Origin: Phycisphaerae bacterium | Lineage (GTDB): Bacteria; Planctomycetota; Phycisphaerae; UBA1845; Fen-1342 | Direction of reading: 5' to 3' | Assembly: GCA_028279405.1 (NCBI GenBank) | Contig: JANQNU010000050.1 | Coordinates: 1-52,576, forward strand | Length of the DNA: 52,576 bases | Shown: positions 1 to 4,977 of the stretch, piece after piece | Position numbering within the stretch: the stretch's first letter is position 1 | How the letters are laid out: each line of letters opens with the position of its first letter | Translations under genes and position numbers: made by a program | The notes under the pieces: generated by a model | The model's input: only the letters and a program-made list of their open reading frames with translations | The model's database searches: none | What the model was told of the DNA's origin: nothing

Positions 1-5
1 CGGTC

Positions 6-1628
6 TTGTTCAATTGTTTCGCTCAGTCAAAGTTTGTCCGCGGTGATCGACGGCGCGACACGCTCGTAGAGCTGACGCGCGTCATCAACAGTTCTTTCGA
101 ACTTTCGAAGGTGCTGCAACTGGCCCGCCAGGTGATCGGGACACTGGAAGGTCATTGCGTCAGTGAAATCGGACTGCTTAACGAAGGCGAGGAGTCGTTC
201 GTTGCTTATCGTCTGCACACGTCCACGGACGACGGGCGAGTGGTCGAACACCCACCCCAGACCGTTCCCATCGCGAACAGCGCCATGGCGCATGTCGTGG
301 CGGAGCGTAGCACCTATGTGTCGGACGATCTGGCCCGCCGGCAGCATTTTCCGGCTGATGCGGACGTGTTTCGATTAGGCGTTCGGCGGTATGTCGAGAC
401 GCCGTTGATTGCGCGCGGCCGGGTGCTGGGCGCCTTTTTCGTCGGTAGCCGTGACCCACACAGGCCATTACGAATGGACCTGTGGCTGTACGAGAACATG
501 GCGCTTCAGATGGCGCTCGCGTTCGACAACGCCATCAAGAATGACCAGCTACAAAAGTTGACGCGCCGACTCCAGGAAGAGAACGTCTATCTCCGCGAGG
601 AGATCACCAGCGAGCACGGCTTCAGCGAGATCGTCGGTAACTCGGCGATCCTGCACGGCGTCCTCGACACGGTCTCCCGGGTCGCTGAAACCGACTCGAC
701 GGTGTTGATCTACGGCGAGACCGGCGTCGGCAAGGAGTTGATCGCGCGAGCGATCCACTCTCGCAGCCCGCGCGCCGACAAGCCGATGGTCAAGGTGAAC
801 TGTGCAGCGATCCCCGAAGGCATGGTCGAAAGCGAGCTGTTCGGTCACGAACGGGGGGCGTTCACCTCGGCGGTCGAACGGCGGATCGGCCGCTTCGAAC
901 TGGCCAGCGAGGGAACACTGTTCCTCGATGAAGTCGGTGAACTCCCGCTCGCGATTCAGGCGAAGCTGTTGCGCGTGTTGCAGGACGGCGAATTCGAGCG
1001 CGTCGGCGGTACCAAGACGCTCCAGACCAACGCGCGAATCATCGCGGCCACCAATCGCGACCTGGCACTGAGCGTCGAGGCGGGCGGGTTTCGTCGTGAC
1101 CTGTACTATCGCTTGAACGTGTTTCCTTTGACCATCCCGCCGTTGTCGCAGCGTAGGGAGGACATTCCGTCGCTGGCGCAGCTATTCGTTGACCAACTCA
1201 ATCGGCGTATGGGCAAGAAGGTGCAATCGATCGATCGCGCGTCGCTGGAAGCACTCACGGTCCGCAACTGGCCGGGAAATGTGCGCGAGCTGAAGCACGT
1301 GATCGAACGCGCAATGATCCTTTCCGACGGGCCGGTGTTGGTCATCGAAGGTGCCGAGCTGGGGCCTGGGCCCGGTCCGGGCGTCTCACCCACGCCGGCG
1401 GCCGCTGCGCTGGACGCAGGTGGGCGCATAGCGGGGCCGTCGGAGGCCGCGGCCGGTGGAGTGGCCACCCTCGAGGAGATGGAGCGCCGGCATATCGTCG
1501 AGGCGCTTGAGGTTGCGAACGGGGTCATCGAAGGACCCGGCGGCGCCGCGAAGATGCTCGGCTTAAAACCCTCCACCTTGCGATTTCGTATGAAACGCCT
1601 CGGCGTACGACGCCCACAGCGCGGCTAG
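6..1628 (+). CDS. Sigma-54-dependent transcriptional activator, GAF-AAA+-Fis HTH (possibly 5'-partial)
   Basis: A bacterial enhancer-binding protein that remodels RNA polymerase carrying sigma-54. The N-terminal 20-185 residues look like a GAF sensor domain. The AAA+ domain has Walker A GETGVGKE near residue 238, the sigma-contact loop as GAFTSA near 284 (usual form GAFTGA), Walker B LFLDEVGELP, and the RRDLYYRLNVFPLTIPPL block. A C-terminal Fis-type helix-turn-helix spans about 505-537 (AAKMLGLKPSTLRFRMKRLG). There is no receiver domain, so a small ligand or a partner protein, not phosphorylation, is the likely input. The only start seen is TTG at 6; the frame is open to the window edge, so the true start may lie upstream. 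A GGCTCC/GGAGCC hairpin (1639-1655) follows the stop. A perfect sigma-54 promoter lies 160 bp downstream of the stop and is a plausible target. Confidence 0.93.
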   Translation: MFNCFAQSKFVRGDRRRDTLVELTRVINSSFELSKVLQLARQVIGTLEGHCVSEIGLLNEGEESFVAYRLHTSTDDGRVVEHPPQTVPIANSAMAHVVAERSTYVSDDLARRQHFPADADVFRLGVRRYVETPLIARGRVLGAFFVGSRDPHRPLRMDLWLYENMALQMALAFDNAIKNDQLQKLTRRLQEENVYLREEITSEHGFSEIVGNSAILHGVLDTVSRVAETDSTVLIYGETGVGKELIARAIHSRSPRADKPMVKVNCAAIPEGMVESELFGHERGAFTSAVERRIGRFELASEGTLFLDEVGELPLAIQAKLLRVLQDGEFERVGGTKTLQTNARIIAATNRDLALSVEAGGFRRDLYYRLNVFPLTIPPLSQRREDIPSLAQLFVDQLNRRMGKKVQSIDRASLEALTVRNWPGNVRELKHVIERAMILSDGPVLVIEGAELGPGPGPGVSPTPAAAALDAGGRIAGPSEAAAGGVATLEEMERRHIVEALEVANGVIEGPGGAAKMLGLKPSTLRFRMKRLGVRRPQRG

Positions 1629-1667
1629 CGGCCCCCATGGCTCCGTCCTGGAGCCGCCGCAATCGGC

Positions 1668-1727
1668 TGCGGGTCCGCAATCGACCACGGCGCCGCGCCA
1701 TCAACATTGCGGGCGTCCGTGATCGAC
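1668..1727 (+). promoter_or_regulatory. Candidate activator-binding sites (pair of related 18-20 bp motifs)
   Basis: Two similar segments lie at 1668-1685 and 1708-1727. Both follow the pattern TGCGGG, then TCCG, then ATCGAC; the second has a 2-bp insertion after the G-run. The first contains the dyad TGCGG-GT-CCGCA. Their centres are about 41 bp apart, close to four helical turns. They sit roughly 70-110 bp upstream of the -24/-12 promoter at 1788, the usual distance for enhancer sites of sigma-54 activators. Binding by the adjacent regulator is inference. Confidence 0.45.
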
Positions 1728-1787
1728 AACAGCACCAAAACCTGCTTTGCGCGTCGTGAGGGACGATTTGCGAAGAGAAGAGCGATC

Positions 1788-1803
1788 TGGCACGACCATT
1801 GCC
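1788..1803 (+). promoter_or_regulatory. Sigma-54 (-24/-12) promoter
   Basis: TGGCACG at 1788-1794, four bases, then TTGCC at 1799-1803. This matches the sigma-54 consensus TGGCACG-N4-TTGCW in every conserved base with exact spacing. With the C of the -12 GC at 1802, transcription would begin near 1814, one base before a 14-bp hairpin. It is the only exact match I found in the window by eye on either strand. Confidence 0.75.
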
Positions 1804-1813
1804 CTTGAAGATG

Positions 1814-1911
1814 GGCGTGAGACGGCACCGTGGCGGCACCAATGTGCCGTCTCGCGCTTTCTGAACCGCCGAACGGTGTTAATCGCTGGCACACCGTTCG
1901 GCTTTTTTTTT
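1814..1911 (+). ncRNA. Candidate sigma-54-dependent small RNA, about 98 nt
   Basis: The predicted transcript starts at the expected +1 of the promoter at 1788 and ends in a T-tract. Hairpin 1 pairs 1815-1828 with 1844-1857 (14 bp, one G-U); inside its loop GTG (1830-1832) can pair with CAC (1837-1839). A short single-stranded linker (1858-1867) follows. Hairpin 2 pairs 1868-1879 with 1891-1902, 12 bp perfect, followed by nine T. There is no convincing reading frame with a ribosome site inside it. An upstream leader of lpxB is unlikely because the terminator is strong and lpxB starts 90 bp beyond it. Target genes are unknown. Confidence 0.55.
1868..1911 (+). terminator. Rho-independent terminator
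   Basis: Perfect 12-bp inverted repeat GCCGAACGGTGT / ACACCGTTCGGC with an 11-nt loop, immediately followed by nine T (1903-1911). It is the clearest intrinsic terminator in the window. It separates the candidate small RNA from lpxB. Confidence 0.9.
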
Positions 1912-2000: not shown

Positions 2001-3140
2001 GTGAGCGCGCGAAAGACCGTCTTCATCTCAGTCGCGGAAGACTCCGCCGACATGCACGGCGCCGCGCTCGTGCGGTCGGCGGCGGAATCGCTCCCGGGCG
2101 TGACGTTTCGCGGCTTTGCGGGGCCACGCTTGCAGGCCGCGGGGGTTGCGCCCATCGGCGACCTCACCCGTGATGCCGTGATGTTGACGGGTGTGGCAAA
2201 GGCGCTCGGAAAGGGCTGGGCCGCATTGAGGACGGCTCAGACAGATTGGCGTACCAATCGGCCCGACGCGGTCATCGTGATGGATTCGAGTGCGTTGCAC
2301 CTGCCGATGGCTGCGGGCGCTCGAAAGCTGGGGCTGCGCGTCTTGTACTACATCGCACCGCAGACCTGGGCGTCGCGGGCTTACCGCAATCGTCGCTTGG
2401 CACGCGATGTCGAGCGCGTCGCGTGCATCCTGCCCTTCGAAGAGGCCTATTTCAGGTCACGTGACGTCGACGCGACCTTTGTCGGACATCCGCTGTTCGA
2501 GCATCTGGCCGCGGACCCCGTCGAGGCGAGCGGCGTGCAGCGGCTTCGATCGGCGGGGCGTCCGTTGGTTGCGATCTTGCCGGGCTCGCGTCGACAGGTG
2601 ATCGCGAGCATGCTTCCGCGGCAACTGGACGTTGTCAGCCAGATGGACACCGCGGTTGAGTTCGCGATCTCGGCTGCGTCCGAGCGCCAAGCGTCACAGA
2701 TCCGGGCAATCCTCGAGCGTCGACGGCAGTCGGCGACGGTGCTCGTCGACCGGAACGCGACGCTTCTGACGGCCGCCGACCTGGTGCTGGTCGCCTCCGG
2801 TACAGCGACGTTGCAGGTGGCGGCGTATCGCAAGCCGATGGTGGTGATGTATGACGCCGGCCGGCTGCTGCGCGCGCTCTATCCGCTGCTTGGGCGCTTC
2901 GTGTTGACTACGACCCATCTCTCGTTGGTCAACATTCTCGCCGATGCGCCGGTCGTTCCCGAGTTCATGCCGTTCATTCGGAGTACAAGGCCGATCGCGA
3001 CCGTTGCGGACGAACTGTTGACCGATGTGGCGCGGCGTGAAGCGATGATGCGCGACCTCGACCGGCTGGTGACGCCGTTGGAGCAAGGCGGTGCGTCTCG
3101 GCGCGTTTGCGAGATGCTGGGAGAGATGCTGGAGGGATGA
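2001..3140 (+). CDS. lpxB: Lipid-A-disaccharide synthase family glycosyltransferase (LpxB)
   Basis: GT19 enzyme that joins UDP-2,3-diacylglucosamine to lipid X in lipid A synthesis, at the inner face of the cytoplasmic membrane. Family blocks are in order: GFAGPRLQAAG, PDAVIVMD (the Asp aligns with catalytic Asp98 of E. coli), YYIAPQTWASRAYR, ILPFEEAYF, FVGHPLFEHL, LPGSRRQVIASMLP, ASGTATLQVAAYRKPMVVMY and THLSLVNILAD. The N-terminal loop usually written GEASGD reads AEDSADMHGA, and the DFN after Asp98 is not kept, so the donor pocket may differ. The start chosen is GTG 2001, which gives 379 aa, normal for the family. The frame is open further upstream, but that would run back through the terminator. 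It stands alone, not with lpxA/lpxD. Confidence 0.85.
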   Translation: MSARKTVFISVAEDSADMHGAALVRSAAESLPGVTFRGFAGPRLQAAGVAPIGDLTRDAVMLTGVAKALGKGWAALRTAQTDWRTNRPDAVIVMDSSALHLPMAAGARKLGLRVLYYIAPQTWASRAYRNRRLARDVERVACILPFEEAYFRSRDVDATFVGHPLFEHLAADPVEASGVQRLRSAGRPLVAILPGSRRQVIASMLPRQLDVVSQMDTAVEFAISAASERQASQIRAILERRRQSATVLVDRNATLLTAADLVLVASGTATLQVAAYRKPMVVMYDAGRLLRALYPLLGRFVLTTTHLSLVNILADAPVVPEFMPFIRSTRPIATVADELLTDVARREAMMRDLDRLVTPLEQGGASRRVCEMLGEMLEG

Positions 3141-4562: not shown

Positions 4563-4800
4563 TGATACCTCCTGAAACAAGTAGAAAACGAATGCGGACC
4601 GTCCCTGGTCACCCCCACGGACGCATCGCATACCTTGCGGTATCCGGGCTCGCGATCGCCGGGAATGTTGCAGGAATCGATCCAGACCCAGGGCGGCAAA
4701 ACGATAGTGATCCGCCCCACCCAAAGCAGATCTTAGGCTCGTGACTGCGCGAATCCCGTCGGTGCAAGAAAAACCGACGTGTGGAGGGCTGGCGACACTC

Positions 4801-4977
4801 GTTTCGTACGAAACGAGCCCGGAGCGCGAGCGCCAGCGAGCGGTCCAATGGCGGGCGAGACGCCCGCCCCACCCACTATTTCTAGGGATCGCACTTGCCA
4901 GGGCAAGCGGCGTAGACGCTTGCCTCGCAAAGGGAGCTTGCTCCCCGCTCGCTGGTGCTCGCGACTCGCATCGGCGT
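4801..4977. repeat. Composite intergenic hairpin-repeat block
   Basis: The block contains the perfect palindrome TTTCGTACGAAA (4802-4813), the GAGCCCGGAGCGCGAGCG unit (4814-4831), the hairpin GGCGGGCG-AGA-CGCCCGCC (4850-4868), and GGGAGC-TT-GCTCCC followed by CGCTCGCTGG (about 4932-4957). The same units recur at 12.5-12.9, 30.7-30.9 and 48.7-48.8 kb. The whole 4574-4980 gap holds no convincing gene; a 7-bp CGTCGGT/ACCGACG stem (4757-4779) is also present. Confidence 0.75.

Follow-up and report, generated by a model that had tools for sequence, protein, structure and literature searches.

A predicted sigma-54-dependent noncoding RNA beside a GAF-type activator gene in a Phycisphaerae bacterium

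Introduction

What would a sigma-54 promoter be for, if the transcript that starts from it meets a strong terminator less than a hundred nucleotides later? This question is raised by a locus near one end of a 52,576-nt stretch of DNA, contig JANQNU010000050.1 of a draft Phycisphaerae genome, the whole of which was analysed and is called the window here. The element lies behind an activator gene and in front of lpxB. Small RNAs controlled by activators of this kind are known from other bacteria. The Qrr RNAs of Vibrio are short, structured and sigma-54-dependent, and they stand under the AAA+ enhancer-binding protein LuxO (PMC10162802). In enterobacteria, glmY is found near an activator gene, in the order glmY-qseE-qseG-qseF (PMC8745638), and sigma-54 control of GlmY has been noted (PMC3162934). 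We found no sigma-54-dependent small RNA described for Planctomycetota in the literature.

A preliminary description of the locus proposed such a sigma-54-dependent small RNA under the adjacent sensor. The promoter beside a likely activator and the short structured RNA both stand; conservation of the RNA, which that proposal had expected, does not. On balance, we see about an even chance that the locus produces an activator-controlled short noncoding transcript, which is probably a lineage-specific regulatory RNA.

Results and discussion

The activator gene

The window opens within the gene of a sigma-54 activator, whose C-terminal 541 aa it encodes (positions 3-1628, + strand; Pfam Sigma54_activat 3.8e-70, GAF_2 2.4e-7, HTH_8 1.3e-7). 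The protein has a GAF region, an AAA+ domain with the GAFTSA loop and a Fis-type helix-turn-helix, so the GAF-type activator that had been reported just upstream of the RNA is indeed there. Its first 155 aa are found on another contig of the same genome, C74, where an exact overlap of 99 bases (window 1-99 = G000:C74:46690-46788) completes the gene and gives a joined protein of 696 aa; the draft contigs had been left unjoined. The length of the protein and its alignment with homologues suggest two GAF domains, of which the second alone scored. On the other side of the activator lie what appear by eye to be housekeeping genes, fmt- and rsmB-like. The gap on this divergent side holds no sigma-54 promoter, which leaves the site at 1788 as the only strong candidate adjacent to the activator.

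The promoter and candidate activator-binding sites

That site, TGGCACGACCATTGCC, reads TGGCACG-ACCA-TTGCC (1788-1803, +) and comes 159 nt after the stop of the activator gene. It agrees with TGGCACG-N4-TTGCW at 11 of the 12 specified positions, or 15 of 16 when the free spacer is counted. It had been described as perfect; the place is right, but the final base is C instead of A or T, and we therefore call the site near-perfect. The predicted +1 is 1814, 12 nt past the -12 C.

Taken alone, a match to the consensus means little. The window holds 7 matches with up to two mismatches, versus 8.4 in shuffles, and the genome as a whole has 75 one-mismatch sites versus 116 for the reversed pattern. 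The context of the 1788-1803 promoter, unlike a bare consensus match, exceeds chance. The combination of TGGCAC-N5-TTGC with a T7 run 75-105 nt further on was found at four places in 114 genomes, and the reversed pattern gave no such case. The other places with this combination (L208, L210 and L211) were set aside: none adjoins an activator, and one is close to the start of a gene that looks NuoE-like by eye. A nearly identical second promoter elsewhere in the genome, C46:58001, sits within a long ORF.

Between activator and promoter, two candidate activator-binding sites, GTCCGCAATCGACCAC (1673-1688, +) and GTCCGTGATCGACAAC (1715-1730, +), form a direct repeat with 13 of 16 positions identical and a spacing of 42 bp, or four helical turns. 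An equal repeat arose in 8 of 150 shuffles, and the assignment of these repeats to activator binding is suggestive only. The second site, about -90 from +1, carries the motif CGACA. Among 5-mers in the DNA that separates activator from promoter, scored for seven homologous activators, CGACA/TGTCG shows the highest enrichment (z 4.5, with 95% of the shuffle maxima under 3.8). In the window CGACA precedes the promoter by 64 nt, and in a relative, G071, by 65 nt. In another, G002, where no consensus promoter was found, it precedes the end of the scanned region (+170) by 63 nt.

The predicted RNA

Promoter and terminator together delimit a predicted noncoding transcript of 98 nt (1814-1911, +). 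A stem-loop with a 15-bp stem begins at the predicted +1 (1814-1858, +), just where a hairpin had been noticed before, and is followed after some ten unpaired bases by an intrinsic terminator (1868-1911, +), with a 12-bp stem at 1868-1902 and nine T at 1903-1911. This T9 is the longest T run among the hairpin-T sites in the 237 kb of genome examined. Seven Watson-Crick stems of at least 10 bp exist in the entire 52.6 kb, and two of them belong to this RNA. Its folding energy (1813-1911) is -54.9 kcal/mol, with a z of -6.5 against shuffles; the 5′ hairpin by itself has -30.9 and a z of -5.5. The minimum-free-energy and centroid structures agree, both consisting solely of two separate stable hairpins. 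Thus the earlier account of a roughly 98-nt RNA with two stable stems and a strong terminator is borne out at the level of prediction.

The RNA contains no Shine-Dalgarno-like motif and no plausible ORF. A hidden small protein was considered and rejected, since the frames have no Shine-Dalgarno and either span just 6-15 aa or exit the unit. A role as a CsrA sponge was likewise dropped, as the RNA is without any GGA. The earlier statement that there is no coding frame needs one amendment: no Shine-Dalgarno-led ORF is present, but the frame of lpxB is open back to a GTG at 1830. This open frame has neither a Shine-Dalgarno nor a counterpart in relatives.

Homologous activators in other genera

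The activator family is rare, being found with the GAF query in 9 of 397 genomes of the class. We compared ten homologues from other genera that have readable downstream DNA. In two of these, sites as strong as that of the window stand at the corresponding place: TGGCACAGCTGTTGCC lies 157 nt behind the stop of the homologous activator in G071, and TGGCATCCCCATTGCA 158 nt behind it in G082. Strong sites thus occur at 157, 158 and 159 nt in three genera, and are missing in eight of the ten homologues. Weak candidates are seen in G024 (141 nt) and G036 (223 nt) and a moderate one at L130 (74 nt); the remaining homologues examined have no promoter candidate behind the activator. On average, some 22-33 kb of strand contain one site of such strength. 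The probability of a match at one given place is accordingly about 2e-4 for each homologue, on a home-made score and with the homologues treated as independent. The comparison with relatives makes the 1788-1803 site a convincing promoter candidate.

These observations bear on one alternative explanation of the locus, namely that the two hairpins are tandem terminators of the activator gene and that a promoter-like sequence falls by chance between gene and hairpins. Both hairpins do lie on the same strand, 186-283 nt behind the activator stop, and one-mismatch consensus sites are common across the genome. The place of the promoter, however, is common to two other genera, the first stem starts exactly at the predicted +1, and only the second stem is backed by a full T run. 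We rank this explanation last and regard it as quite improbable.

The eleven planctomycete activators form a supported clade (98/99), within which the three carriers of a strong site are scattered. This scatter is compatible with an old promoter that was lost several times and also with repeated gains, and the tree favours neither.

In the relatives, the promoter leads to the start of a gene, either for a DUF3466 protein or for a Cys-rich exported protein. The transcripts of G071 and G082, as predicted from sequence, would open with a 5′ stem-loop and continue into a gene that has a Shine-Dalgarno and whose product begins in a signal-peptide-like manner; the stem-loop energies are below those of 97.5% and 93.5% of shuffles, respectively. 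Similar exported-type genes (DUF3466, FG-GAP) come after the weaker sites of G024 and G036, and the genes differ. The gene calls at these loci come from a simple ORF picker, and their details may be in error. A search of related genomes thus finds the position of the promoter kept in G071 and G082, but not the RNA; the promoter runs into protein genes there. BLAST of the RNA in 27 genomes of the family returned no homologue, and a single-sequence covariance model run over 114 genomes of the order gave chance-level matches with no promoter or activator nearby. The expectation of a conserved RNA with covarying stems therefore fails for these genomes; none of the collections searched contains a close relative of the genome of the window.

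Could the RNA then be what was left when a protein gene disappeared? On this account, which we take as the chief rival, an exported-protein gene was lost, promoter and terminator ended up close together, and a short RNA is made that has no function. The relatives speak for it, given that at a like distance their promoter leads to an exported-protein gene in G071 and G082, and that the weaker sites of G024 and G036 precede such genes as well, differing ones; the RNA being without relatives points the same way. Yet no trace of an ORF is left, both stems are intact and not decaying, and a remnant would not need a 15-bp stem running exactly from +1. Even as the foremost of the alternatives, we consider it unlikely.

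The lpxB neighbour

Past the terminator lies lpxB (2001-3140, +; Pfam LpxB 7.6e-61), whose presence had led to the suggestion that the RNA may act on envelope genes. In the relatives lpxB is unlinked to the activator and located elsewhere. Pairing of the unpaired parts of the RNA with the lpxB start does not go beyond chance (p 0.23 to 0.91). Since the lpxB neighbourhood is not conserved and the pairing is not significant, the proposed link to the envelope finds no support. A preference of sigma-54 for exterior functions is known (PMC3162934), and the promoter targets in the relatives look exported.

It is also conceivable that the RNA is the leader of lpxB, an attenuator in which sigma-54 transcription halts at 1911 unless a signal permits passage into the gene. 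The start of lpxB is on the same strand only about 90 nt past the terminator, an open frame traverses the RNA in the lpxB frame, and in relatives the product of the promoter is a coding mRNA that starts with a stem-loop. Against this, the regions upstream of lpxB share nothing with those of relatives, where the gene is not beside the activator; the predicted structures are two separate stable hairpins; and a housekeeping gene such as lpxB would need a promoter of its own. We find this reading improbable and place it second among the rivals.

Comparison with known RNAs and systems

In a search of Rfam, nothing credible was found at the gathering score or at E<=10, in keeping with the earlier expectation that no family would match. 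The best match of sRNA type is Qrr (RF00378), with 15.9 bits and an E of 3.1, far under the cut-off of 50; this score and the lack of a detectable Hfq led us to reject Qrr membership. Membership of GlmY/GlmZ was rejected as well, there being no match to its Rfam model at E <= 10. Hfq (PF17209) has no match in this genome, which is 95.5% complete, and control genomes were positive. A classical Hfq-type sRNA is therefore unlikely.

The likeness to Qrr lies in the short structured RNA, the sigma-54 promoter and the AAA+ activator, all predicted from sequence in the present case. In contrast to Qrr, the sensor here would be of tandem-GAF type and not a LuxO-type response regulator, no Hfq is detectable, and the phylum is unrelated. 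The locus resembles GlmY as a predicted sigma-54-dependent small RNA near an activator gene (QseF/GlrR in enterobacteria); it differs in that the RNA here follows the activator gene and in that there is no evidence of a glmS-type target. An activator beside its target promoter is also the ordinary arrangement, seen in paralogues of this genome and in G071 and G082, whereas the target here is predicted to be a terminated noncoding RNA and not a protein gene.

A possible mechanism

Sequence and comparison support the activator, the promoter and its conserved position, both stems, the terminator, the lack of a plausible ORF and the lack of Hfq and Rfam matches. In the reading that we prefer, the sigma-54 promoter next to the activator gene would belong to it, the two forming one unit. 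The tandem-GAF activator would sense a signal and bind some 90-140 bp ahead of +1; once bound, it would open the sigma-54 polymerase at 1788-1803. Transcription from 1814 to 1911 would then yield a stable 98-nt RNA with two hairpins, which may act in trans by pairing or by protein binding, having taken over from a protein gene as the product of the promoter.

We infer that transcription does occur, under the control of the adjacent activator, and that its product is a regulator particular to this lineage, in place of a protein gene. That it regulates something is suggested by its compactness, by a 5′ end lying within a stem and by its likeness to Qrr and GlmY. As the position of the promoter is kept in relatives for a secreted-protein gene, the RNA looks like a young regulatory RNA. 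A broader reading, which we offer tentatively and with less than even confidence, is that of a cassette: a conserved sensor-activator and sigma-54 promoter with an exchangeable product, which may be the mRNA of an exported protein in some planctomycetes and, in the lineage of the window, a newly born, Hfq-independent regulatory RNA with its hairpin at +1. If the RNA is transcribed as predicted, activator-controlled sigma-54 small RNAs would extend to a genome without detectable Hfq. In addition, a regulatory RNA would have been born by replacement of the product behind a conserved promoter that makes an mRNA in relatives.

Sigma-54 sites and repeats elsewhere

The genome encodes rpoN (match 2.7e-54). 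One paralogous activator adjoins TGGTACGTAAGTTGCA, which precedes a gene of ferritin-like (Dps-type) kind, and another adjoins TGGCACGTGGGTTGCG, which precedes a gene for a carboxymuconolactone decarboxylase, suggesting stress-response regulons for these pairs. The paralogue loci with strong sigma-54 promoters are L113 7934-8425 (-) and L112 10412-11053 (+). A perfect consensus precedes an Hsp20 gene (L082 1501-2012, +), and of the six sites with a perfect consensus the majority seem to be intergenic, as judged with a simple ORF picker. Together, the paralogue promoters and the Hsp20 site indicate that the sigma-54 consensus is in use in this genome. At L127 (G000:C89:47324-47339), a perfect site is immediately followed by a long hairpin, GAGGGCTGCCACC...GGGTGACAGCCCTC, within what looks like an mRNA leader. 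Stem-loops at the 5′ end may be a common feature of sigma-54 leaders in this genome, though most of them were not significant against shuffles.

The window also contains dispersed short repeats, GGCGGGCGAGACGCCCGCCCCACC and GGGTGGCACTGGCGGCTTGTCCGCCAGTGTTC (4848, 12834 and 30857; 12670, 30996, 43910 and 46405). Repeat GGGTGGCACTGGCGGCTTGTCCGCCAGTGTTC occurs in both orientations, with up to 40 nt perfectly complementary. Finally, a perfect 20-base palindrome, CTCGTTTCGTACGAAACGAG (window 4798-4818), is located upstream of a minus-strand gene for a dockerin-bearing exported protein.
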